Origin: Sulfuricurvum sp. PD_MW2
GTDB taxonomy: Bacteria; Campylobacterota; Campylobacteria; Campylobacterales; Sulfurimonadaceae
Assembly: GCF_002633015.1 (NCBI RefSeq)
Contig: NZ_NSIU01000001.1
Location: 248,001 to 312,000 of the forward strand
Direction of reading: 5' to 3'
Length of the DNA stretch: 64,000 nt
Shown: positions 24,707 to 53,561 of the stretch, in pieces
How positions within the stretch are numbered: the first letter of the stretch is position 1
Layout: each line of letters opens with the position of its first letter
Notes under the pieces: generated by a model
Told to the model about the DNA's origin: nothing
The model's database searches: none
The model's input: only the letters and a program-made list of their open reading frames with translations
Program-made: the position numbers and the translations under genes

Positions 24707-24723
24707 GGGAACTTTTTTTGCTT
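24707..24723 (+). promoter_or_regulatory. Candidate sigma-54 promoter of fliD
   Basis: GGGAAC-N5-TTGCTT has GG (24708-24709) and GC (24720-24721) exactly ten bases apart, directly after the SDR stop. It is a good match apart from the first and fourth bases. Confidence 0.5.
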
Positions 24724-24735
24724 AGGGGTATTTAC

Positions 24736-24763
24736 TAAATATTTGGTCGTGATCGGTCGATAT
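24736..24763 (+). promoter_or_regulatory. Candidate sigma-28 promoter of fliD
   Basis: TAAA (24736-24739) and GTCGATAT (24756-24763) are 16 bases apart, against the usual 15. FliD is a known late or middle flagellar gene, so dual control together with the upstream sigma-54 site is plausible. Confidence 0.45.
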
Positions 24764-24793
24764 AGTTTATACTGAAATACAAAAGGATTTGTG

Positions 24794-39734: not shown

Positions 39735-41216
39735 CTATTGTAGTAATTTCAATACGTTTTGTTGAACAGCATTCGCTTGGCTCATCGCGTATGAACCCGA
39801 TTGAGCAAGAATATTATACTTAGCAAATGTAGCTGATTCAGCGGCGAAGTCAACATCACGGATGTTAGATTCAGCAGCTTTCACGTTTACTTGAGTAACA
39901 GAGATATTATTAACGGTTGCGGTCAATTGATTTTGAACCGAACCGAGGTCTGAACGGATAGAGTCAAGCAATTTTTGAGCAGCCTCAGCGATGTTCATAA
40001 CCGCCATTGCCCCTTTAAGTGTCGTTACACCCGCTCCGATTCCTGAGGTTGCCGCAGTACTGGTACCGGCTGCAGAGTATACCCAGTTACCGATCGCAAG
40101 AGCTGCTGTCGATGTTGTACCGAACAATGTTGACGCAAGGTTCATTGTTGCACGATTTCCTCCGGATGAGAGCCCCGCACCATCATTTGCAGCACTAGAA
40201 ACAACGATTGCACGTGCATCCAAACGAGAAAGGGTCAATTTACCGTAGTTTCCGCCTTCAACGAATCCTGTAACGGAACCGGTTCCAGCTGATACATGTA
40301 TACCGCGGCCGTCATTTGATTTCAAGTGAAGTTGACCTTGAGTATCAATCGTAGCGGTAACACCGGTTTGTTCTTTGACGGCATTGATCGCATTGACCAA
40401 TACACCCTCTTTATCGTTTTGTGCGATTTGGCTGAAGTTACCTAAGTTAACACCGTTGATCGTAAGACCTGAGATATCGGTATTAGCTGCGATATTTCCT
40501 GACATTACAGTTTCAACTACATATGAAGCACGTACACCGGTTTGATCGGATGCATTGTTGATAACATCAGCAAGTTTACCGATACCGCTTCCTGCACTGT
40601 AGTCGATTGCAACTGCTTGGAGGGCAATACTTTTACCGTTTGCACTGAATGTCAATGTTGATGTACCGGCAGTTGACATACTAAGACCGGTATAGTAACT
40701 CACATTCCCGATTTTAGTACTTTGAGTAGCACCGATGCTTGCATCGATGGTTTGGTTTGAGTATGCACCGACTTGGAATTGTTTATTTGTAAATGAACCT
40801 GAAAGGAGGTTTTGACCATTATAGTTGGTTGTGTTGGCAATATTGTCCAAACCTTGGATAAGGCGAGAAATATCGGCTTGCAACGCTTTACGAGAATCAG
40901 CACTTTGACCGTCTTGAGCTGCTTGAGTTGCTTTTACCTTGATGGTTTCAAGAATTTTAAGCTGCTCATCCATCGCTTTGTCAGCGATTTGAACGATACC
41001 GATTGCATCGTTTGCATTGGAAACGGCTTGACCCAATGAACTTGATTGTGCACGAAGAGAGTCGGCAATCGCCATACCTGAAGCATCATCTGCCGCCGTA
41101 TTAATACGAAGACCAGAACTGAGTTTAGCCAATGAATTGTCCAAACTTCTATTGTTGCTTAATGATGCTGTATGCGCATTCATTGCCGCTACGTTAGTGT
41201 TAATTTTAAAACCCAT
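39735..41216 (-). CDS. fla: Flagellin, copy 1
   Basis: The 493-residue filament protein has conserved D0/D1 ends ([15 protein letters not shown]; final [14 protein letters not shown]) and a variable Ser/Thr/Gly-rich D2/D3 middle (~170-400), the usual glycosylation surface. It is the last of three tandem copies in transcription order. It differs from copies 2 and 3 in the C-terminal tail (LKLLQ versus LRLLQ) and in residues ~372-430 (for example [14 protein letters not shown]). Its central region is nearly identical to copy 3. No cysteine is present. Confidence 0.96.
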
Positions 41217-41391: not shown

Positions 41392-42867
41392 CTATTGTAG
41401 CAAACGAAGCACGTTTTGTTGAACAGCATTCGCTTGGCTCATCGCGTATGAACCCGATTGAGCAAGAATATTATACTTAGCAAATGTAGCTGATTCAGCG
41501 GCGAAGTCAACATCACGGATGTTAGATTCAGCAGCTTTCACGTTTACTTGAGTAACAGAGATATTATTAACGGTTGCGGTCAATTGATTTTGAACCGAAC
41601 CGAGGTCTGAACGGATAGAGTCAAGCAATTTTTGAGCTGACTCAGCGATGTTCATAACTGCCATTGCCCCTTTAAGTGTTGTTACACCCGCACCCATTCC
41701 TGAGATAGCGGCTGTACTGGTACCGGCTGCAGAGTATGCCCAACCACCGATTGCTACGGCAGCTGTAGAACCAGTACCGAATAATGTTGACGCAAGATTC
41801 AAATTGACGCGGGTTGCTGTGGAAATACCGGAAGCATCGGTTGCAGCTCCGGAGACAACGATTGCACGTGCATCCAAACGAGAGAGAGTTAAGTGGCCAA
41901 AGTTACTGTTATCTGAGAATCCTGTAACCCCACCGTTTGCGGAGACAACGATACCGCGGCCGTCATTTGATTTCAAGTGGATTTGACCTTGAGTATCAAT
42001 CGTAGCGGTAACACCGGTTTGTTCTTTGACGGCATTGATCGCATTGACCAATACACCCTCTTTATCGTTTTGTGCCAAACCGCTGAAATTTCCGATTGTA
42101 ACACCATTAATGTTGAGAGATGAGATGTCTGCACCTGCGGTAATGTTACCAGACATTACGGTTTCAACGACGAACGATGCACGTACACCGGTTTGATCGG
42201 ATGCATTGTTGATAACATCAGCAAGTTTGCCGATACCGCTTCCTGCACTGTAGTCGATTGCAACTGCTTGAAGCGTGATGCTTTTACCGTTTGCACTGAA
42301 TGTCAATGTTGATGTACCGGCAGTTGACATACTGGCACCGGTAAAATAGTTGACATTTCCGATTTTAGTACTTTGAGTAGCACCGATGCTTGCATCGATG
42401 GTTTGGTTTGAGTATGCACCGACTTGGAATTGTTTATTTGTAAATGAACCTGAAAGGAGGTTTTGACCATTATAGTTGGTTGTGTTGGCAATATTGTCCA
42501 AACCTTGGATAAGGCGAGAAATATCGGCTTGCAACGCTTTACGAGAATCAGCACTTTGACCGTCTTGAGCTGCTTGAGTTGCTTTTACCTTGATGGTTTC
42601 AAGAATTTTAAGCTGCTCATCCATCGCTTTGTCAGCGATTTGAACGATACCGATTGCATCGTTTGCATTGGAAACGGCTTGACCCAATGAACTTGATTGT
42701 GCACGAAGAGAGTCGGCAATCGCCATACCTGAAGCATCATCTGCCGCCGTATTAATACGAAGACCAGAACTGAGTTTAGCCAATGAATTGTCCAAACTTC
42801 TATTGTTGCTTAATGATGCTGTATGCGCATTCATTGCCGCTACGTTAGTGTTAATTTTAAAACCCAT
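41392..42867 (-). CDS. fla: Flagellin, copy 2
   Basis: 491 residues, same ends as copy 1 but with its own central region: residues ~177-355 include NVNYFTGASMS, GNITAGADISSLNINGVTIGNFSGLAQ and GAATDASGISTATRVN. The last ~120 residues are nearly identical to those of copy 3, and the first ~170 are identical in all three. It thus supplied, or received, the 3' part of copy 3. Confidence 0.96.
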   Translation of the reverse strand: MGFKINTNVAAMNAHTASLSNNRSLDNSLAKLSSGLRINTAADDASGMAIADSLRAQSSSLGQAVSNANDAIGIVQIADKAMDEQLKILETIKVKATQAAQDGQSADSRKALQADISRLIQGLDNIANTTNYNGQNLLSGSFTNKQFQVGAYSNQTIDASIGATQSTKIGNVNYFTGASMSTAGTSTLTFSANGKSITLQAVAIDYSAGSGIGKLADVINNASDQTGVRASFVVETVMSGNITAGADISSLNINGVTIGNFSGLAQNDKEGVLVNAINAVKEQTGVTATIDTQGQIHLKSNDGRGIVVSANGGVTGFSDNSNFGHLTLSRLDARAIVVSGAATDASGISTATRVNLNLASTLFGTGSTAAVAIGGWAYSAAGTSTAAISGMGAGVTTLKGAMAVMNIAESAQKLLDSIRSDLGSVQNQLTATVNNISVTQVNVKAAESNIRDVDFAAESATFAKYNILAQSGSYAMSQANAVQQNVLRLLQ

Positions 42868-44591: not shown

Positions 44592-44618
44592 ATATCGGCC
44601 GCAGAATTGAAATCTTTA
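44592..44618 (-). promoter_or_regulatory. Sigma-28 promoter of flagellin copy 3
   Basis: On the minus strand TAAA (44615-44618), exactly 15 bases, then GCCGATAT (44592-44599), the textbook FliA site. It lies at the very 3' end of the preceding pilin-like gene. Confidence 0.85.
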
Positions 44619-44622
44619 ATGA

Positions 44623-45282
44623 TTAGGGAGAAATTTGAGTCCATTGTGAGGTTGAGGCATTGTACATATTTAAAGTGGCATTTGTATCACAATACCACAA
44701 AGTTCCGTTTAAAGGGGATGAAGGTGCGCTCGAAGAGATAATTGCACTATTATATCCACGTGTTTGTGTTGCGACTTCTGATCCATTGTAAAGCTTTAAA
44801 TGGTTGGTTTCTCCGATACCGATTTCAAGTAGAATATCATCTCCCTGCGCTGTTGCATCGGTTGAGAGGGTTTGTAATACTCCGTCTTCACCTTTACTGA
44901 TAAGACGGCCCAAGACGTTTGAATTGGGTGAAATGGAAGTTGAATTATTATCAGCATACGTTGCATTGGTGTTGTGCATTCCGAAATCAAAAGTACTGTA
45001 GAAAATATTACGGCCCCATGCATCTTTTCCAAGACCTATTGAGACAGGAACAGTATTGTCAGCGGCTTCTTTCAGTAATTCAAAATAGGCATCGTTATCA
45101 GGATTTGAAGCTTGATTTAACAAACGGCTCCGGATAACTTCCAGCATTGTTTTACTATTTTGCTGTTTTAGCGTATTCCCCTGAATAATAGTATAGTATC
45201 CCATTGTTGCCAAAACAGCTGCTAAAATTCCGGCCATAATGATAGAGATCATTACTTCAACGAGCATCATCCCTTTTCGCAT
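44623..45282 (-). CDS. Type IV pilin-like prepilin (minor pseudopilin)
   Basis: The 219-residue protein has a short leader ending in Gly4, then MMLVEVMISIIMAGILAAVLA with the conserved Glu at +5, the prepilin peptidase signature. The globular part includes VSIGLGKDAWGRNIFYSTFDFG and a repeated LNGTLWYCDTNATLNMY segment of the kind seen in phage-tail-like carbohydrate-binding tips. It follows the GspF-like gene directly and is the last gene of the secretion cluster. No prepilin peptidase gene is in the window. Confidence 0.82.
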   Translation of the reverse strand: MRKGMMLVEVMISIIMAGILAAVLATMGYYTIIQGNTLKQQNSKTMLEVIRSRLLNQASNPDNDAYFELLKEAADNTVPVSIGLGKDAWGRNIFYSTFDFGMHNTNATYADNNSTSISPNSNVLGRLISKGEDGVLQTLSTDATAQGDDILLEIGIGETNHLKLYNGSEVATQTRGYNSAIISSSAPSSPLNGTLWYCDTNATLNMYNASTSQWTQISP

Positions 45283-46328
45283 TATGCTTTTCCTGCCTGA
45301 TTGATAATTTCTTGTTGTATCAATACCTGTGTCAAGACAATCGTAAAGAACTCAACAAATACGGCAAATGCAAGTAAGAGAATCGCTAAAATGGTAATAA
45401 TGCGAAAGAATTTAGTTGCCATAGTGAGTGCATTGAGACGTGCACGATCGGCAAATTGTTCTAAAATATCGCCTAATTGTGTGACTGTACCGGCTCCTGA
45501 AAGAAGATGTTGTTCAATATCTTCAAAAAAAGGGATAGCCCAAAAGTTTTTCTCTCCACGGCTGACTTGTGTCAGTATCCCTTGAAATTGCTTTTGAATA
45601 CGAGGGACAAGAGTACTGTTGGCAGCGGTTTGAAGTGAGGTTTTAAGGGATACACCATTTTTTAACATCGCACTGAGCAAACTGAGTAAAATGAATTTTT
45701 CAAAGTATTCGATAATGTTAGATGACATGGGAAGCATCGATGCGGCTCTTTTGGCAATGCCCTGGAGAATTCCCGTATAGTTAAAAAGGGCAAACATCAC
45801 CATAAAAAAATAAAGAGCAAAAATGAGCAATGCTCCAAATAAAATATTACTGAGGAAAAGGGCTCTATCCAAGTGCTCTGCAATAATGATAAAAACGTTT
45901 GGATCATAGGTTTTAGCTTCTTCGATATGAAATGGAACTGCAAAAAATCGGACGAAAATGATAATAATGGTTGTCAAGATAAAATAGATCATCGGGAGTG
46001 CAATTTTATCGTTTGATTCTTGGTGGAATTTATTTTTAACTTCTAAATAGCGAACGACTGATTTGAGTGTTTTGACAAATGATCCCCCTTTTTCAGCCAT
46101 AGCAACAAATTGGATAATATCGGGCGGAGGAGCAAGATATTTCTCTAAAGATTTGGAAAAAGAGGCACCTTCTTGGATTGAGCGGGTAATATTGGCGTAT
46201 GCAGACGCATCAGCTTTATTTTTAGAGGTTTTTTGAAGCAACGAGAGTGCATTTGTTAAACTTTTTCCATTTTCAAGGGATAATTGGAGTGTTTTTAATA
46301 GAGTAAGAATATCAGCTTTCATGAACAT
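45282..46328 (-). CDS. Type II secretion/type IV pilus inner-membrane platform protein (GspF/PilC/CtsF)
   Basis: The 348-residue protein has two T2SSF domains (~10-120 and ~205-325) each followed by membrane segments (~110-130, ~160-185, ~315-340). Family motifs include FVAMAEKGGSFVKTLKSVVRYLE and the second-domain LSAMLKNGVSLKTSLQTAA. It anchors the ATPase and drives pilin extraction. It overlaps the ATPase gene by 17 bases and abuts the prepilin gene. Confidence 0.9.
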   Translation of the reverse strand: MFMKADILTLLKTLQLSLENGKSLTNALSLLQKTSKNKADASAYANITRSIQEGASFSKSLEKYLAPPPDIIQFVAMAEKGGSFVKTLKSVVRYLEVKNKFHQESNDKIALPMIYFILTTIIIIFVRFFAVPFHIEEAKTYDPNVFIIIAEHLDRALFLSNILFGALLIFALYFFMVMFALFNYTGILQGIAKRAASMLPMSSNIIEYFEKFILLSLLSAMLKNGVSLKTSLQTAANSTLVPRIQKQFQGILTQVSRGEKNFWAIPFFEDIEQHLLSGAGTVTQLGDILEQFADRARLNALTMATKFFRIITILAILLLAFAVFVEFFTIVLTQVLIQQEIINQAGKA

Positions 46329-47874
46329 ACCCTAAAGAGAGCAATTCGTGTGATAAGGTTTCATAATCACATAATCCTGATTCAAACAAATACGCTGCTG
46401 ATTGAAAATAGCTAAAAGTGATGAAATGCTCCCATGCTTTAAAAACAGTACTATTTTTCAGAGCAAGATAGAATTGGTAACGTACTTTCATATCACCGGG
46501 AATAAAAACCATATCCATTAATAGTGCACGACCGCTATATCCTGTGAAGTTACAGCGAATACACCCCACTTTTTCATACCCATAGTTTTCGGTTCCAAAA
46601 AACGTTTTTCCATCTTCGACATTGCATGGCTGTTTGCAGGTACAGAGTTTCGGTACAAGCCGTTGAGCAATAACCCCACTGAGGGAATAGGCAAGGATAA
46701 ATAGATCCCCTCCCTCATCACGAATACGTTCCATTGCCATAAAACTGTTTGGTGTGTGAAGTGTGGAGAAAACCATGTGTCCACTGTGTGCGGCTTTGAG
46801 CCCTGTAAGAATGGATTCACGATCCCGCATCTCCCCGATGACGATAACATCCGGGTCTTGACGCATGATCGATTTCATCCCTTCGGCAAAGGTGAATCCA
46901 CTTGCCTCATTAATCTGATATTGGGTAACGAAATCAATTTTATACTCAATAGGGTCTTCGATTGTATAAATAATTTCGTGCAGTCGGTCACGTTGATTTA
47001 AAATTGCATTGAGAGTAGTGGTTTTACCGCTTCCGGTAGGTCCTACTACGAGAAAAAAACCGCTGGATTGGTTTACAAAATGATGTACATGTTCAGACAT
47101 CGGATGGTTTTTTGGAAAAAGAGAGTTAAGAGATTTGATATTACTGGCTTTGTCCAAAATACGTAAAACGATATTTTCTCCGTATTGAGAAGGGGCGATT
47201 TCGATACGAAAGTCGATGGTTCTGCCCTCGTAATCACGAGAAAAACTCCCCCCTTGCGGAGCAAAAACATTAATCATGTCAATATTACAGCGTTCTTTGA
47301 TGATTAGAGCAAAACGCCCTGCAAGTTCATGATTGAGCAAATAACGGGCAATGATTTTTCCATCGATCCGATAACGGAGCCAGTAAAATGATTCGTATGC
47401 ATTGATATGAATATCGCTGGCAGAACGTTGTATTCCATACTCGAGAAGCATTTCAAAGATGTCGATAACTTCATCTTCTTCGTAATCCATGGCATTGAAC
47501 TGTTTGATTTTTCGCTCAATACTCTCTGGATCAACACGTAAAAAGGCTAAATATTTTTGTTGAAATTCACGGACAGGGATGTTTTTTTGCTCAACCCTTT
47601 TTTGAACCCGAGCGCTTAGTTCAGCGAGGCGTTTCTCTCCTAAGAGCTCTTTGCGAAGGATTTTAAGAACATCATCGCGCTCTTCGGCGATCACCATCTC
47701 AAACTCTTTCATAAGCTCGAGGTTATAGGTTTTTGTACTCTCTTTTTTTTGGATGAAATGGTGAGAAAGGGCAATATCTAAAAGATGTTTTTTAATGCCG
47801 ATTTGCTGATAGTAATACTGCTCTTTTTGGCATACTTCTAGCTGCTTTGGCGTTAGTATCTTTTTGATATTCAT
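46312..47874 (-). CDS. Type II secretion/type IV pilus assembly ATPase (GspE/PilB/CtsE)
   Basis: The 520-residue hexameric ATPase has Walker A GPTGSGKTTT (278-287), the Asp box around YTIEDPIEY (303-311), Walker B DPDVIVIGEMRD (340-351), a His box (STLHTPNS) and a zinc-binding set of cysteines (411, 413, 417, 438, 441). The N-terminal ~130 residues are a helical domain. It powers pseudopilus assembly at the inner membrane. It is separated from the preceding gene by 41 bases. Confidence 0.93.
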   Translation of the reverse strand: MNIKKILTPKQLEVCQKEQYYYQQIGIKKHLLDIALSHHFIQKKESTKTYNLELMKEFEMVIAEERDDVLKILRKELLGEKRLAELSARVQKRVEQKNIPVREFQQKYLAFLRVDPESIERKIKQFNAMDYEEDEVIDIFEMLLEYGIQRSASDIHINAYESFYWLRYRIDGKIIARYLLNHELAGRFALIIKERCNIDMINVFAPQGGSFSRDYEGRTIDFRIEIAPSQYGENIVLRILDKASNIKSLNSLFPKNHPMSEHVHHFVNQSSGFFLVVGPTGSGKTTTLNAILNQRDRLHEIIYTIEDPIEYKIDFVTQYQINEASGFTFAEGMKSIMRQDPDVIVIGEMRDRESILTGLKAAHSGHMVFSTLHTPNSFMAMERIRDEGGDLFILAYSLSGVIAQRLVPKLCTCKQPCNVEDGKTFFGTENYGYEKVGCIRCNFTGYSGRALLMDMVFIPGDMKVRYQFYLALKNSTVFKAWEHFITFSYFQSAAYLFESGLCDYETLSHELLSLGYVHES

Positions 47875-47915: not shown

Positions 47916-48428
47916 TCAGCGTGAGAGATAAAATTTGAAGAGTGCTGACGTGGCGTTATGATCCAATGTCGCTTGTTGGGATGTGTAGTTGACAATCAGC
48001 TTTTTGAGCGCTTTGTCTTGGGTTGAATTGTTGTCTGCAGTGGTTACGATGTAAAAAGCAGTTCCTGATTCTGTTGCCCGATACGATGAAAACCCGCTTG
48101 GGGGGAGCGGAACGAAACCGTTTCTCCCTCCATTAAAAGAATAAGGGGTGGAAGTATTGCATTCTAAATCGCTTAAAAGGGTATTGGATGCTTGTGTTCC
48201 GCTGTTCAGCTCTTTTGGGAACTGCTCTGAGAGGCTTTTGCATTGAAATGTCATTGATTCAATCAGATTGATTTGTGATTCAATGGTACTTTTATAGCGA
48301 AGTGCGTTAAGTGTTGTCAAATTAAAATAATAATAACCGATAGCACCTAATACCCCCACCAAAAAAATGGTGAGAGCAATTTCAACAAGAGTAAAAGCTC
48401 TATGTCGCATGGTGAGCTTATTTAACAA
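47916..48428 (-). CDS. Pilin-like protein (minor pseudopilin)
   Basis: The 170-residue frame opens at a TTG at 48428; an ATG at 48410 (MRHRAFTLVEIALTIFLVG) gives 164 residues and a leader of normal length, and I consider it equally likely. The prepilin motif AFTLVE with Glu+5 is clear, followed by a hydrophobic helix. The globular part has one possible disulfide pair (SMTFQCKSLS and LECNTS). It overlaps the upstream pilin gene by 11 bases if the TTG is used. Confidence 0.78.
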   Translation of the reverse strand: MLNKLTMRHRAFTLVEIALTIFLVGVLGAIGYYYFNLTTLNALRYKSTIESQINLIESMTFQCKSLSEQFPKELNSGTQASNTLLSDLECNTSTPYSFNGGRNGFVPLPPSGFSSYRATESGTAFYIVTTADNNSTQDKALKKLIVNYTSQQATLDHNATSALFKFYLSR

Positions 48429-49002
48429 TCATGATCCAATGTTTATAGTGTGCACCGACTTGTTGAGAGTAACAAAATGTATCTCCATAACGTGTATGTT
48501 GTGTCGTGACACTTCCAAAGTTCATGTCGTTAGTAACGTTTAACTCAACGCTTTTATTGATTTCATGATTGAAAATAGCACAATAAAAATCATCATCTGA
48601 GACGACATCCCAGCCGCCGGTACCGTTCAGATCAATTGGAAATTGAAATGCAGGTCGTCCATTAACCGCAGAAGTATTAAGTTCCCATCCAGTTGTCGTC
48701 ATTTCACGGATATCTCTTGGAAGAGAGCGGAGAATCATTACATTTGTTGCATTAAACTCACTTAAGTTTGCAACTGTTGGGGCAACCCCTTGTTGAGCAA
48801 CGAAAACATCGTATGCACCTGAGAGTTGATACGCTTGGTCCATCAATGCGGCAACTCTGGCTTTTTTAGCGGTTAAGTCAATATTAAAAAGACTTTTATA
48901 GTAAAGCATCGCAATAGTTGAAAGAACACCGAATAAAATAACGGCAATAGTCATTTCAACCAAAGAGATCCCTTTTCTCTTTCCATTGTAGCGATTCGAC
49001 AT
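48418..49002 (-). CDS. Pilin-like protein, paralogue of the major pseudopilin
   Basis: The 194-residue prepilin has cleavage site KRKG/ISLVEMTIAVILFG. Its middle shows the same TTGWELNTS block and C-terminal NHE...C pattern as the 49189-49755 gene, so the two arose by duplication. It has its own strong ribosome site (AAAGGAG) and a sigma-28-like promoter in the 186-base gap upstream. That would allow expression apart from the head of the cluster. Confidence 0.82.
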   Translation of the reverse strand: MSNRYNGKRKGISLVEMTIAVILFGVLSTIAMLYYKSLFNIDLTAKKARVAALMDQAYQLSGAYDVFVAQQGVAPTVANLSEFNATNVMILRSLPRDIREMTTTGWELNTSAVNGRPAFQFPIDLNGTGGWDVVSDDDFYCAIFNHEINKSVELNVTNDMNFGSVTTQHTRYGDTFCYSQQVGAHYKHWIMIVK

Positions 49003-49036
49003 GTCAAACTCCTTTTATAACACGTTATAGACCATT

Positions 49037-49063
49037 AAATCGGCGATAGAAAAAAAAACTTTA
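49037..49063 (-). promoter_or_regulatory. Sigma-28-type promoter inside the pseudopilus cluster
   Basis: On the minus strand TAAA (49060-49063), exactly 15 bases, then GCCGATTT (49037-49044). The -35 context (AATCATTAAAG) is the same as at the flagellin copy 3 promoter. It would serve the pilin-like gene starting at 49002 and downstream genes. Confidence 0.6.
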
Positions 49064-49122
49064 ATGATTGAAGAGAGATTGAAAGTATTTTAGGATAAAG
49101 AAGAAAATTGAACCTCCCAAAA

Positions 49123-49138
49123 CCCCTCTTTCGAGGGG
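49123..49138 (-). terminator. Hairpin after the major pseudopilin gene
   Basis: CCCCTC-GAAA-GAGGGG with a GNRA-type tetraloop, followed by TTTT on the minus strand, 50 bases beyond the stop. It probably stops or reduces transcription so that the upstream pilin is made in excess. Confidence 0.65.
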
Positions 49139-49188
49139 AAGGAAAGGATTCAGTAGAATTATAAAAAGAGCGCGATTAAATCAAGCAA

Positions 49189-49755
49189 TTATGGTACAAC
49201 AATCATGATTGTTGGATTGTTTGCAGATGCTTGACCGTAACAGAACATATTCCCTTGAGTTGCTTTTTTCGCAGCTGCTGTTCCGAATTGGAATGAATTA
49301 GATACGTTCAAGTCTTGAGTTGTGTTGAACTCACGGTTGAAAATCGCACAATGTACAGCATCAATTTTATCTGTTGTTGATACGTTTTTATCCAATTTCA
49401 TTTGGAATGCTACACCTGTTCCCGGAAGACCTGTAGAGGTATTAAGTTCCCAACCTGTTGTTGACATCTCTTTAATTTTTGTAGGCCATGTTGTCAAAAT
49501 AGATGATGAACCGTTGAAATCGTTGATTGAAGTCGGTTCAACACCCATTTCTGTTTTATAAATTTGATACGCTTGTACCAATTGGCTTGCTTGATCTGTC
49601 GCAGCAGCAACACGCGCTTTTTTCGCTTGCAAGTCTGTATTCAAATACACTTTAGTATATTTAAGTCCGATAGCAGCAAGTGCTGCAAACAAAACGATCG
49701 CAATTGTCATCTCCACTAAAGAGATACCTTTTCTCATTCCTGTGTACTGTTTCAT
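49189..49755 (-). CDS. Major pseudopilin-like prepilin
   Basis: The 188-residue protein has the prepilin site MRKG/ISLVEMTIAIVLFAALAAIG; a start at residue 7 (MRKG...) would also fit. Residues ~60-110 (QAYQIYKTEMGVEPTSINDF) resemble GspG-type pilins. It has a strong AAAGGAT ribosome site and is followed by a terminator-like hairpin. Both suggest the highest expression among the four pilin-like genes. The TTGWELNTS block is shared with its neighbour at 48418. Confidence 0.82.
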   Translation of the reverse strand: MKQYTGMRKGISLVEMTIAIVLFAALAAIGLKYTKVYLNTDLQAKKARVAAATDQASQLVQAYQIYKTEMGVEPTSINDFNGSSSILTTWPTKIKEMSTTGWELNTSTGLPGTGVAFQMKLDKNVSTTDKIDAVHCAIFNREFNTTQDLNVSNSFQFGTAAAKKATQGNMFCYGQASANNPTIMIVVP

Positions 49756-49805
49756 TGGTTATCCTTTTTTTTGATCGGGGGATCTTTGCCCACTAGATCG
49801 GTTTT

Positions 49806-50276
49806 TTAATTTGGAATCTTTAATACATATGGATGAACGATGATTGAAAAACCAAATTCATCCGTTGTGCATCCTTGTCCGATGCAGCTGCTGACTAATT
49901 CTACGTCATCATTTTTGACAACATCCAGAAGCCGTTTCAATAGTACGTATGAATAGGTGTCATGAATGCCTCCTTGGATAATTAATTTTTGTTGGTCGAT
50001 CTTTACGTCCGCTTCCATCCCAAATTCTTGGAGAAGTTCTTTGTATTGATCATTTTTAGTACGCAGAACATCGCCTTCTGCATACACAGCAACTGGTTGC
50101 TCAACGGCAGTTTTTAAAGCACTAAAGGTTTTCACCTCTTCGGCTACCGTTTTGTCCTCGTAGACAATATTGAGGAAATAGAAGTAGGTTGCGACTAAAA
50201 TTGCTATTAAAACAACAATAAAAAGAGCCGCAAGACTATATCTTTTCATTACAATATTGAACGATGCCCTGAGCAA
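49806..50276 (-). CDS. Single-span assembly protein, PilO/GspM-like
   Basis: The family is not recognised directly. The 156 residues have one N-terminal membrane segment (~15-35) and a periplasmic ferredoxin-like part (residues 90-150) with DVKIDQQKLIIQGGIHDTYSYVLLKRLLDVVKNDDVELVSS, resembling PilO/GspM. Two cysteines (SCIGQGC) could form a disulfide. It overlaps the 264-residue gene by 41 bases, as pilN-pilO pairs often do. Confidence 0.6.
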   Translation of the reverse strand: MLRASFNIVMKRYSLAALFIVVLIAILVATYFYFLNIVYEDKTVAEEVKTFSALKTAVEQPVAVYAEGDVLRTKNDQYKELLQEFGMEADVKIDQQKLIIQGGIHDTYSYVLLKRLLDVVKNDDVELVSSCIGQGCTTDEFGFSIIVHPYVLKIPN

Positions 50277-51030
50277 CGTCTTCCTTTATGATATTCGCTT
50301 CCGGTGGTAACAACCTGACAAAAGCGTTGAGGTTTGGTGTCACCACCTCAGCACATAAGCTATCGTTTTGATAGCTGATCTGCTGAAGGGTGGACTCCGT
50401 AGATTGTGTCATTTCCTCAATTTTTTCAAGTTCATGGACAATATCCACTTTCTTGGTCATGGCAAATGATGTTTGGCAATTTTTAGTCACCAATTGTTTA
50501 TACTCTTTTACAAGTACGTCCCTATTGCTTAGATTGATTTCAGTTGCGTTGAGATAACTGTATCCGGCGTAGAAAATACCGACAGTAAGCACAACGGTTG
50601 AGACCAATACAAAACTTCCGACCCAGGTATCTTTGCGTTCCTTATCTAGATTGAGGGAAACAAGTTTTTCTCCTTTTGCGTTATCCGCATAAAGAATTGA
50701 AAATCCTCTTTCTTGTGCAAATTCTTCCGGTTTATCCAAAATGTAGTCAATAATTTTTTGATCTTCCAGCAATACTCCTACGTTTTTATAGTCAAGTTCG
50801 AAAACGATGACGCTTCTGCCTTGATTTTTTCCGGCAAGCGAAAGGATGTTTTCATAGACGATTTTCTCTTTTGGCAAAAATGCAATGTAATTAATCCCCT
50901 CCGGATGCTTTCTGAGTGAGACTTTAACAGCGGATGAATCGAGATCTCTGCGTGCATGTGAATATACCTGCATACGGATAGTGTTCATATCACTGTTAAA
51001 ATCAAGAGAACCAGCTGTAAAAATTGCCAT
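50236..51030 (-). CDS. Membrane assembly protein, PilN/GspL or CtsX-like
   Basis: The 264-residue protein has an N-terminal cytoplasmic region (~1-140) with a beta-rich actin-like flavour (IVFELDYKNVGVLLEDQK), one membrane segment (~145-167) and a periplasmic coiled coil (~170-230). This layout matches GspL/PilM-N fusions and C. jejuni CtsX. It sits between secretin and PilO-like genes in the expected order. The assignment rests on topology and context. Confidence 0.55.
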   Translation of the reverse strand: MAIFTAGSLDFNSDMNTIRMQVYSHARRDLDSSAVKVSLRKHPEGINYIAFLPKEKIVYENILSLAGKNQGRSVIVFELDYKNVGVLLEDQKIIDYILDKPEEFAQERGFSILYADNAKGEKLVSLNLDKERKDTWVGSFVLVSTVVLTVGIFYAGYSYLNATEINLSNRDVLVKEYKQLVTKNCQTSFAMTKKVDIVHELEKIEEMTQSTESTLQQISYQNDSLCAEVVTPNLNAFVRLLPPEANIIKEDVAQGIVQYCNEKI

Positions 51031-51033
51031 TGC

Positions 51034-52473
51034 TTATCTCATTACGTACTTGATAACACGAGGGGTAACCACGATTACCATCTCGCTTTTTGTACTGGAT
51101 GTATGGCGTGCACCGCCTACAACACCGGCCGCGCTATCTCCAAGACCAGGTAACCCGCTCCATCCTTTATCGCTTTTATTGCGGAAAAGCCCTGAAATGA
51201 CAATCGGAACACCCGGTTGAACCCGCATGGTGTTGTTGATTGCCTTGGTGACGGTTTGAGGTTGAGAAAATTTATTGCCATTCACTTCAAATGAGGTGTA
51301 ACCGACGATATCATTGATTTTAAGACCGATATCGGTAATGACGGTTCCATCGAGCATATTGGAGTTAAGATTGATTTCTAATCCGCTCAGTGCTGTCGCA
51401 CTGGTCGTAGAGACTTGAGATGTGCCGTTTCCTACAGCTGTATTTTGAATTCCACTGATGTATGGTGCTTCAATTCCGTCAGTCAGTTTTACATTTGTTC
51501 CGGCTAGGCCTAAGAGTTTCGGTCGTTGAACACTTTCGACTTTTCCAAAATTTTCCAACGCATTGACGAGTGCTTGACCGTTATAGGTATCATTTTTCAT
51601 GATCATCCCGAATGTCAGAGGAAGAGCAGATGCACCGGCAGAACCTAAGCTTCCTGAAGCGGAAGCAACAAAATTCAAACCGTTCTTCGCTAGAGTAGGA
51701 ACTAAACTCCAGTCGATTCCCAAGGCATAATTGTCTTTGAGTTCGACATCATAAATAGAAATTTCGTATTCAATAACGTAGAGATTGTTACGGAGTATTT
51801 CAAGATATTTCATAATATCGTTGTACTCTTTTTCGCGTGCAGAAAAACTAACCGACGAGGTTATCGTGTCATAACTGACGTTGGTGGCTCCCATAGAATC
51901 AAGGCTGGTTTTTAGGATATTTGCAAGACCGCTGATCGGAGGAATCTTAACGGTAGTAGTTCTGGTATTACCCAAATAAAAGGTTCCATCGTTGTATTGG
52001 ACTCCGATTTTATCACCTACGGTTTTTTGAAGCACTTTTCCAAAGGAGATATTGGAAGCAGAAAGGTTTATTTTACTTTCCGAGAGAAGATATTCATTTT
52101 TCCCTGCATAAGGGTTCGTGGTGCCCCCTTGAGTCGTTAGAATCTGATTTTTGGTTGTCATCGCCTCGGATTGAAGCTGAAAAACGATATTTTCATTGGT
52201 AGCTTCAGTGAGCAGAGCAATGACATCACGTAATTCAGCTCCCATGATTTTGGCCCGTTTAATAATCTCTTTATCAGGTATCGCTTGCGGTTCAATGTGG
52301 AAATTATCGGCATTCACTTCGACCACTTGCACAGAAGGTTCATTTTTTTGTATTTGTGTAATATTTTTGTCTAATTCTTTGAGATGCATTTCAGGAGTCA
52401 GTGTCTCTTTTTTGGTTGCGACACTGCATCCGGTCAGTCCCAAAAGTACGGCAGCGAGAAATAAAGAGCGCAT
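51034..52473 (-). CDS. Outer-membrane secretin (PilQ/MshL/CtsD type)
   Basis: The 479-residue lipoprotein (lipobox LTGC, C16) has N-terminal STN/secretin-N regions (AELRDVIALLTEATNENIVFQ; YLEILRNNLYVIEYEISIYDVEL) and a C-terminal secretin gate (~310-475; VESVQRPKLLGLAGTNVKLTDG, MRVQPGVPIVISGLFRNK, GLPGLGD, VVTPRVI). It forms the outer membrane channel for a pseudopilus, DNA uptake or secretion. Gene order secretin-CtsX-like-ATPase-platform is like the C. jejuni cts transformation cluster. Confidence 0.9.
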   Translation of the reverse strand: MRSLFLAAVLLGLTGCSVATKKETLTPEMHLKELDKNITQIQKNEPSVQVVEVNADNFHIEPQAIPDKEIIKRAKIMGAELRDVIALLTEATNENIVFQLQSEAMTTKNQILTTQGGTTNPYAGKNEYLLSESKINLSASNISFGKVLQKTVGDKIGVQYNDGTFYLGNTRTTTVKIPPISGLANILKTSLDSMGATNVSYDTITSSVSFSAREKEYNDIMKYLEILRNNLYVIEYEISIYDVELKDNYALGIDWSLVPTLAKNGLNFVASASGSLGSAGASALPLTFGMIMKNDTYNGQALVNALENFGKVESVQRPKLLGLAGTNVKLTDGIEAPYISGIQNTAVGNGTSQVSTTSATALSGLEINLNSNMLDGTVITDIGLKINDIVGYTSFEVNGNKFSQPQTVTKAINNTMRVQPGVPIVISGLFRNKSDKGWSGLPGLGDSAAGVVGGARHTSSTKSEMVIVVTPRVIKYVMR

Positions 52474-52868
52474 TATTGACCTCCTGTCGTAAAATAGATT
52501 GTTTGTATTCGTCCGGAATCATCTACCGTGATGTAGTTGCTGGTGATATTTCGGATGAAATATTTTTTATTATTGGCATAAAAAGGGTCTCCTTCTTTGA
52601 GAACGACTTTGTTATCACCAATTTTGAGAAGGATAAATTTCCCTTTTTCTGTCTCTAAATAACAGTTGTATACCAACTTTGACAGGTCAAAAGTTGCCGG
52701 TTTTTCGGTCGGTACAATAGGTGGTGCGAGCAACGGAGGAAGAGGCATAGGACGTACTTCTGACGTTGCAACCGGAGTTTTCTTCGGTTTTACACTTTCG
52801 CGAAAAAACGGGTTGTAGGCCGCATTTAGCGAAAGTGTAAGGAAAAGAAATGACCAAAAATAGTTCAT
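52473..52868 (-). CDS. PilP/GspC-like periplasmic protein (CtsR position)
   Basis: The 131 residues hold a signal peptide (~1-17), a proline-rich stretch (30-55) and a small beta domain (~60-131) with LLKIGDNKVVLKEGDPFYANNKKYFIRNI (pieces), like the HR domain of PilP/GspC that contacts secretins. Its stop touches the secretin ATG. It is the first gene of the cluster and occupies the ctsR place relative to ctsD. The function is inferred from position and layout. Confidence 0.6.
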   Translation of the reverse strand: MNYFWSFLFLTLSLNAAYNPFFRESVKPKKTPVATSEVRPMPLPPLLAPPIVPTEKPATFDLSKLVYNCYLETEKGKFILLKIGDNKVVLKEGDPFYANNKKYFIRNITSNYITVDDSGRIQTIYFTTGGQ

Positions 52869-52902
52869 ACCGACACTTTCATAGAGATAATTTTGTGTTT
52901 AA

Positions 52903-52919
52903 AAGCAATAAGTGTTCCA
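52903..52919 (-). promoter_or_regulatory. Sigma-54 promoter of the pseudopilus cluster
   Basis: On the minus strand TGGAAC-ACTTA-TTGCTT differs from consensus by one base; GG and GC are ten bases apart. It lies about 35 bases ahead of the first gene (start 52868). Confidence 0.72.
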
Positions 52920-52948: not shown

Positions 52949-52965
52949 TGGACTATAAATTGCTT
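52949..52965 (+). promoter_or_regulatory. Candidate sigma-54 promoter of the M15-like gene
   Basis: TGGACT-ATAAA-TTGCTT with GG (52950-52951) and GC (52962-52963) ten bases apart. It points away from the pseudopilus promoter, so the pair is divergent. Three mismatches lie in the -24 half. Confidence 0.5.
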
Positions 52966-53015: not shown

Positions 53016-53561
53016 ATGCAAAAAACAGAACAGAATGATGTACTTATTGATCCGAGTCGGAGAACTTTTTTTAAAAGTGCACTAGCTCTTAGTGTTTCGG
53101 GAACTCTTTATGCATCCAATAAATTTAATAATCAAAGTTTGCATCTCATTCGTAATGGAAATGAGTACACTATCCCTTTTATGCGAAACGGGAAACTAGA
53201 AGAAAACGGTTATACTGATTTGTGTCGTATTTTTGCAGATGTCCGTGCAGGAGTTGCCGTGCAAATGGATCCAAATTTGTTCATTGTCCTCTCACAAGCT
53301 CAGCAATGGCTCTCTAATAATCAAATTAAGCGTCCCATTATATTGACGTCAGGTTACCGAACGGAACATACTAATGCGATGACGGAAGGGGCGGCATTTA
53401 ATTCAATGCACTTGTATGGAAAAGCTGCAGATATCAAAATTGAAGGTATACCCGAAGATTATTTGGCACGATTACTTCGTTTATGCGGAGGTTCCGGTAT
53501 AGGTATCTATTCGAGTTTTGTGCATGTGGATACATGGAAAGTAAGAGCTTGGAGAGGGTAA
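53016..53561 (+). CDS. Tat-exported M15-like (DUF882/YcbK) murein peptidase
   Basis: The 181-residue protein has a twin-arginine leader (SRRTFFKSALALSVSG at residues ~13-28) with hydrophobic core, so it is exported folded. The C-terminal domain is M15/DUF882: LTSGYRTEHTN, then NSMHLYGKAADIKI with the zinc His/Asp, and SSFVHVDTWKVRAWRG with the final zinc HVD. Such enzymes trim peptidoglycan. A sigma-54 site upstream and the divergent pseudopilus operon hint at a cell-wall opening role for that apparatus, an inference. Confidence 0.85.
   Translation: MQKTEQNDVLIDPSRRTFFKSALALSVSGTLYASNKFNNQSLHLIRNGNEYTIPFMRNGKLEENGYTDLCRIFADVRAGVAVQMDPNLFIVLSQAQQWLSNNQIKRPIILTSGYRTEHTNAMTEGAAFNSMHLYGKAADIKIEGIPEDYLARLLRLCGGSGIGIYSSFVHVDTWKVRAWRG

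Follow-up and report, generated by a model that had tools for sequence, protein, structure and literature searches.

The window analysed here, a stretch of 64,000 nucleotides from Sulfuricurvum sp. PD_MW2 (contig NZ_NSIU01000001.1, positions 248,001 to 312,000), contains a pilus-like cluster of ten genes on the minus strand, from 52868 to 44623. This cluster encodes a complete type-IV-filament assembly machine, comprising a secretin, GspC/L/M-like envelope parts, four prepilin-like proteins, an ATPase and a platform protein. Two predicted promoter sites in the cluster match those of the flagellar genes, one the middle class (the sigma-54 sites of rod and hook genes) and the other the late class (the sigma-28 sites of flgM and flagellin), and both are conserved in relatives. 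We therefore consider it likely, judging from the sequences, that this accessory machine belongs to the flagellar cascade, with a sigma-54-dependent middle module for the envelope and a sigma-28-dependent late module for the pilins and the motor. Because both kinds of flagellar promoter lie at fixed positions, production of this second filament is probably timed together with that of the flagellum.

Flagellar-type promoter sites in the cluster

The initial annotation had placed the cluster under flagellar-type promoters on the basis of a near-consensus sigma-54 site at its head and a sigma-28-type site ahead of the second pilin-like gene. Both sites are present as it described them. The sites and genes, in the order of transcription, are as follows.

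52903 to 52919, minus strand: sigma-54-type promoter TGGAACACTTATTGCTT, predicted from sequence, at the cluster head
52473 to 52868, minus strand: c01, small exported protein of 131 amino acids with a YNPFF motif, probably a GspC/PilP-type part
51034 to 52473, minus strand: c02, outer-membrane secretin of 479 amino acids with a lipoprotein signal (PF00263, E = 4e-16, above cut-off)
50236 to 51030, minus strand: c03, bitopic inner-membrane protein, probably GspL/PilM-PilN-like
49806 to 50246, minus strand: c04, bitopic inner-membrane protein, probably GspM/PilO-like by its position
49189 to 49755, minus strand: pil1, pilin-like protein with an N-methyl motif, of a tandem family that varies from 1 to 3 copies among relatives
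49112 to 49146, minus strand: hairpin between pil1 and pil2 (minimum free energy -18.9 kcal/mol, z -1.57), a weak candidate for a terminator or attenuator
49037 to 49063, minus strand: sigma-28-type promoter TAAAGTTTTTTTTTCTATCGCCGATTT, that is TAAA-N15-GCCGATTT, predicted from sequence, ahead of pil2
48418 to 49002, minus strand: pil2, conserved pilin-like protein of 194 amino acids (PF07963 above cut-off)
47916 to 48410, minus strand: pil3, minor pilin-like protein of 164 amino acids (TIGR02532 above cut-off)
46312 to 47874, minus strand: GspE/PilB-type assembly ATPase of 520 amino acids (PF00437, E = 1e-81; PDB GspE 4pht, 8e-68)
45282 to 46328, minus strand: GspF/PilC-type platform protein of 348 amino acids (PF00482, E = 1.5e-23)
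44623 to 45282, minus strand: pil4, minor pilin-like protein of 219 amino acids with weak N-methyl/GspG matches
44592 to 44618, minus strand: sigma-28-type flagellin promoter, predicted from sequence, used as the comparison site

The sigma-54-type site TGGAACACTTATTGCTT lies 34-36 nucleotides 5' of the ATG of c01 (52868). Its one mismatch is to the general consensus TGGCAC-N5-TTGC, and there is none to the Campylobacter jejuni consensus. The start sites of C. jejuni give GGaa-N6-tTGCTt for sigma-54 and, further, CGATwt (PMC3847290), and both cluster sites fit these start-site motifs. Genome-wide counts were obtained by pattern searches. The pattern TGGNACN5TTGCW had 17 matches compared with 3 for the reversed control, and the wider TGGNAYN5TTGCWT had 22 compared with 2; the sigma-54 pattern occurred in 0/2000 shuffles of the window's own stretches. 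The same motif precedes flgL, flgE, flgB, fliK, flgI, flgF, pseB and a short FlgP-like gene in this genome (flagellar gene names at motif matches were given by sequence recognition). The distance from the motif to the ATG is 33-36 nucleotides in most of these flagellar cases, including most of flgL, flgE, flgB, flgF and pseB, as it is at the cluster head.

The sigma-28-type site TAAAGTTTTTTTTTCTATCGCCGATTT lies 34 nucleotides 5' of the start of pil2 (49002). As had been noted, it shares its -35 context with the flagellin promoter; the 10-mer ATCATTAAAG is common to both (flagellin site at 44618-44592). The pattern TAAAN14-16GCCGATNT had 22 matches in the genome compared with 5 for the reversed control, and the sigma-28 pattern alone is therefore weak; a loose form of it occurred in 0.75% of shuffles of the window's own stretches. 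Intergenic matches located 30-70 nucleotides before a start included those of flgM, flagellin 1, pil2 and two short genes without a known identity.

Two further observations concern genes near such sites. The two short genes (69 and 46 amino acids, at L033 and L052) have their sigma-28-type sites 30 nucleotides 5' (G000:C3:19258-19284 and G000:C72:36928-36954), and they are possibly further members of the late flagellar class. Upstream of the cluster head, the motif TGGACTATAAATTGCTT, with GG-N10-GC spacing (52949-52965, plus strand), faces a divergent M15-type peptidase gene (53016-53561, plus strand). This motif, read by eye from the sequences, is kept in 12/12 of the Sulfuricurvum clusters read, and it could represent either a second sigma-54 promoter, directed away from the cluster, or the -10 element of a sigma-70 promoter.

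Conservation of the sites in relatives

Carriers of the cluster comprised eleven congeners from the relatives search, 26 loci found using the secretin profile (the genomes partly overlap) and a further genus, G329. The initial annotation had named absence of the sites from close relatives as one ground for refuting its proposal, but both are kept in three genera of aquatic sulfur oxidisers (Sulfuricurvum, Sulfurimonas and one other), to secretin identities as low as approximately 50%. The sigma-54 site was found at 28/28 orthologous cluster heads, 27 of them exact and one (L115) with one mismatch; at L108 it was found after the start was re-read. The sigma-28 site precedes the pilin in 23/23 of the clusters in which this stretch is present, and in some relatives it reads GTCGAT or TCCGAT in place of GCCGAT. 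In the head alignment the sites are fixed in place while the flanks diverge, and the site columns are partly conserved through the anchoring itself.

We compared these counts with a background set of 574 open reading frames of at least 150 amino acids in 45 loci, in which a match was counted within 100 nucleotides upstream. The 16 sigma-28 matches were those of 14 cluster pilins, one flagellin and one other gene, and the five sigma-54 matches were those of three tandem cluster pilins and two others. Neither site was found at the heads or pilins of 18 stretches carrying other pilus, type II secretion system (T2SS)-like or Cts-type clusters of the order, or at the head or pilins of the MSHA-type cluster of the same genome. 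Both patterns are short and AT-rich and the genome-wide enrichment of the sigma-28 pattern is only approximately fourfold over the control, as would be expected if the matches had arisen by chance in AT-rich intergenic DNA. Chance does not explain, however, why the sites hold fixed places in all these clusters while the flanks diverge, or why they are absent from the heads and pilins of other clusters. Because the sites are conserved, we regard chance as already refuted and give it a negligible probability.

A single pilin occupies the pil1/pil2 place in Sulfurimonas and G329, and two to four tandem copies are present in most Sulfuricurvum. Several of the tandem copies in Sulfuricurvum carry their own sigma-54 or sigma-28 site; extra pilins of this kind are found at L079 5973-7294, L082 11897-12457 and L093 13502-14107. 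The tandem copies, with their predicted sites, are an example of gene duplication accompanied by the gain of promoters. The last gene, pil4, is kept in all complete clusters.

The initial annotation also stressed that the cluster abuts the flagellin array on the same strand. In the window, pil4 ends at 44623, adjoining the flagellin promoter, and three flagellins then follow on the same strand. Apart from the window, only four close relatives have this arrangement, and it does not extend to the cluster in general. Thus, the shared promoters, and not the neighbourhood, are the conserved link. Using the c03 profile, the system was detected in 4/299 sampled genomes of the order and 3/81 genera; the machine is therefore accessory and patchily distributed.

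A separate lineage of type IV filament machine

The assembly ATPase, the platform protein and the class III prepilins that mark the type IV filament superfamily occur together in the cluster, with a secretin for diderm export. A prepilin peptidase (PF06750 and PF01478) is encoded on contig C19, and the cluster lacks a retraction ATPase. The pilin-like proteins pil1 and pil2 are paralogous. For c02, the best NCBIfam model is MshL (95 bits, cut-off 250) and the nearest PDB sequence is BfpB (4e-12). The AlphaFold2 model of c03 (predicted local distance difference test score 78) has a GspL-like layout, and its Foldseek matches to PilM, EpsM and PulL/M were weak, none of them significant. No family match was found for c01 in the domain-model scans or for c04 in the family scan and the PDB search, and the PDB sequence search with the c03 and c04 profiles gave nothing useful.

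A tree of 41 GspE-type ATPases placed those of the window type in a single clade (100/100), to the exclusion of the MSHA-type, T2SS-like and Campylobacter-type ATPases. The Campylobacter-type row is a long branch, and therefore only its exclusion from the window clade was used. The Campylobacter-type locus (G065) was recognised only by gene order, being preceded by a porA-like gene and followed by a flgK-like gene. The CtsR-, secretin-, CtsE- and CtsF-like genes of this locus matched the cluster on contig C29 of the Sulfuricurvum genome, a canonical MSHA-type cluster (MshL 261 bits, over the cut-off of 250), better than they matched the window cluster. By its sequences, the cluster stands in a lineage of its own, apart from the Cts/MSHA-type and T2SS-like systems of the order.

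The name Cts, which the initial annotation had used, is accordingly withdrawn. The window cluster resembles the Cts system of C. jejuni in having a secretin, small inner-membrane proteins, a GspE-type ATPase, a GspF-type platform and pilin-like genes in Campylobacterota. This overlap would fit a competence machine of the group, of Cts type, whose DNA uptake had been put under flagellar promoters. The ATPase belongs to another clade, however, the Cts-region genes are closer to the C29 cluster, and the presence of the machine in so few genomes of the order also argues against this explanation, which we consider very unlikely.

Three other identities were rejected. An MSHA-type pilus (MshL/MshM/MshE/MshG) shares with the cluster the best model of its secretin; the score of c02 is below the cut-off of that model, and the cluster has no MshM-type AAA protein. 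For a canonical T2SS, the scores were below the cut-offs (GspG 14 against 89, GspE 294 against 630 and GspD 47 against 351 bits). For a FliA-controlled Tad-type pilus, defined by a TadA ATPase and a Flp pilin, the TadA-family model gave 43 bits against 373.

The same flagellar control could also act on a T2SS-like pseudopilus by which swimming cells would export a periplasmic protein. Consistent with this, the ATPase best matches GspE by model and in the PDB, a retraction ATPase is lacking, and the layout of the predicted c03 structure is GspL-like. Variable tandem pilins with their own promoters would, however, be unusual for a GspG-type pseudopilin, the GspG model concerned (TIGR01710) is the one that reached 14 bits, and no constant exported cargo gene was seen beside the clusters. 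We regard the pseudopilus as doubtful. We favour a surface filament, given that both the sequence of pil1 and the number of its copies vary and that additional copies have gained sigma-54 or sigma-28 sites of their own.

Proposed place of the cluster in the flagellar cascade

RpoN, FlgRS and FliA-FlgM are conserved in Campylobacterota with a standard flagellum (PMC9321776). In polar flagellates, FlgS/FlgR and sigma-54 act once the export gate and the MS ring-rotor are built, and FliA acts after FlgM export, following the hook (PMC7064773). Of 18 cluster-bearing genomes, 17 have a FliA that exceeds the family cut-off, and a sigma-54 DNA-binding domain was found in 16.

We infer actual transcription and its activator from sites that match the genome's own flagellar promoters and are kept in three genera. 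Sigma-54 RNA polymerase, normally activated by FlgS/FlgR after the export gate is built, would start at the 52903 site and give the envelope complex c01-c04 and pil1, expressed alongside the genes of the rod and hook. After hook completion, FlgM export frees sigma-28 (FliA), which would start at the 49037 site and make or boost pil2, pil3, the ATPase, the platform and pil4, together with flagellin. The envelope part would come first and the filament and motor later, mirroring the order of hook and filament. The product would be a filament outside the cell, with which newly flagellated cells would probably make contact or attach themselves; secretion is possible, and DNA uptake is less likely.

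Several points weigh against this proposal. The sigma-28 site of Sulfurimonas extends with its -35 part into the final codons of c04. Some of its conservation may therefore be coding, and the weight rests on the noncoding CCGATAT part. One sigma-54 match in the Sulfuricurvum genome precedes a DnaJ-like gene. The metagenome-assembled genome G334 has the sigma-54 site, yet no sigma-54 DNA-binding domain was found in it, possibly owing to an assembly gap. The pilin structure model had no significant PDB match in the fold search. Transcripts from the head promoter may run on into the second module, given that the hairpin between pil1 and pil2 is weak and absent from the terminator-scan listing. 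Finally, most cluster-bearing Sulfuricurvum checked have two sigma-54 paralogs (G000:C13:17594-18052 and G000:C3:37228-37680 in the genome of the window), and sigma-54 serves other activators too.

The paralogs, and the fact that sigma-54 by itself does not identify the activator, leave room for a real sigma-54 site under a non-flagellar activator, which would untie the head module from flagellum building. The motif and its distance to the ATG equal those of flgL, flgE, flgB and flgF, however, and the sigma-54 site is always accompanied by its sigma-28 partner. Further, the Sulfurimonas genomes with a match have one sigma-54 and keep the site. We consider a non-flagellar activator improbable, and control of both modules by the flagellar cascade remains our preferred explanation.

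If this is true, two unrelated surface machines are built by a single regulatory clock and in one sequence, with the envelope part before the filament. It would become directly testable how free-living sulfur oxidisers coordinate swimming with contact, and how the flagellar link of an accessory pilus cluster survives changes in its genomic neighbourhood. It is quite conceivable, and we suggest it tentatively, that this unnamed type IV filament lineage of Campylobacterota is an obligate companion of the flagellum, a second surface filament that reports on or waits for flagellum completion via the same two checkpoints.

Comparison with known systems

The only close precedent found is the Tad/Flp pilus operon of Bdellovibrio, which is FliA-dependent and co-regulated with the flagellins, as determined by reporter assay (PMC5430801). 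Its pilus genes are tied to flagellins via sigma-28, as we propose for the window cluster. In contrast to the window cluster, it encodes a type IVb Flp machine in another phylum and lacks the paired sigma-54/sigma-28 split into middle and late modules. The initial annotation had considered flagellar control of such a machine to be new. FliA control of a pilus is already known from Bdellovibrio, and what appears to be new is the presence of both flagellar promoter classes at fixed places in a cluster. In the part of the literature that our search covered, we found no report of such a cluster, or of this machine or its control in Sulfurimonas or Sulfuricurvum.

The flagellum co-expressed (Fed) genes of C. 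jejuni are non-motility genes under sigma-28 (PMC7064773). They belong to the same phylum, and sigma-28 control of non-motility genes is what we propose for the window cluster. To our knowledge, the Fed genes are single genes and do not make up a whole envelope machine with a sigma-54 head. The pilA genes of Pseudomonas and Geobacter resemble the window cluster in that a pilin gene is under sigma-54; they depend on the dedicated activator PilR and not on the flagellar cascade, and we know of no sigma-28 partner for them.

Other flagellar genes of the window

The window also holds pseB/C/F/G/H/I-like genes, a maf-like gene and fliD (names by recognition), which we take to be an island for flagellin glycosylation and the filament cap. 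The regions upstream of flagellin copies 2 and 3 (41392-42867 and 39735-41216, minus strand) are nearly identical and carry a variant of the sigma-28-type site, TCCGATATA, which has a weaker -35 part and is unlike the site of copy 1. The region 5' of fliD (approximately 24708-24790, plus strand) contains a sigma-54-like stretch, GGGAACTTTTTTTGCTT, and a sigma-28-like stretch, GGTCGATATA.

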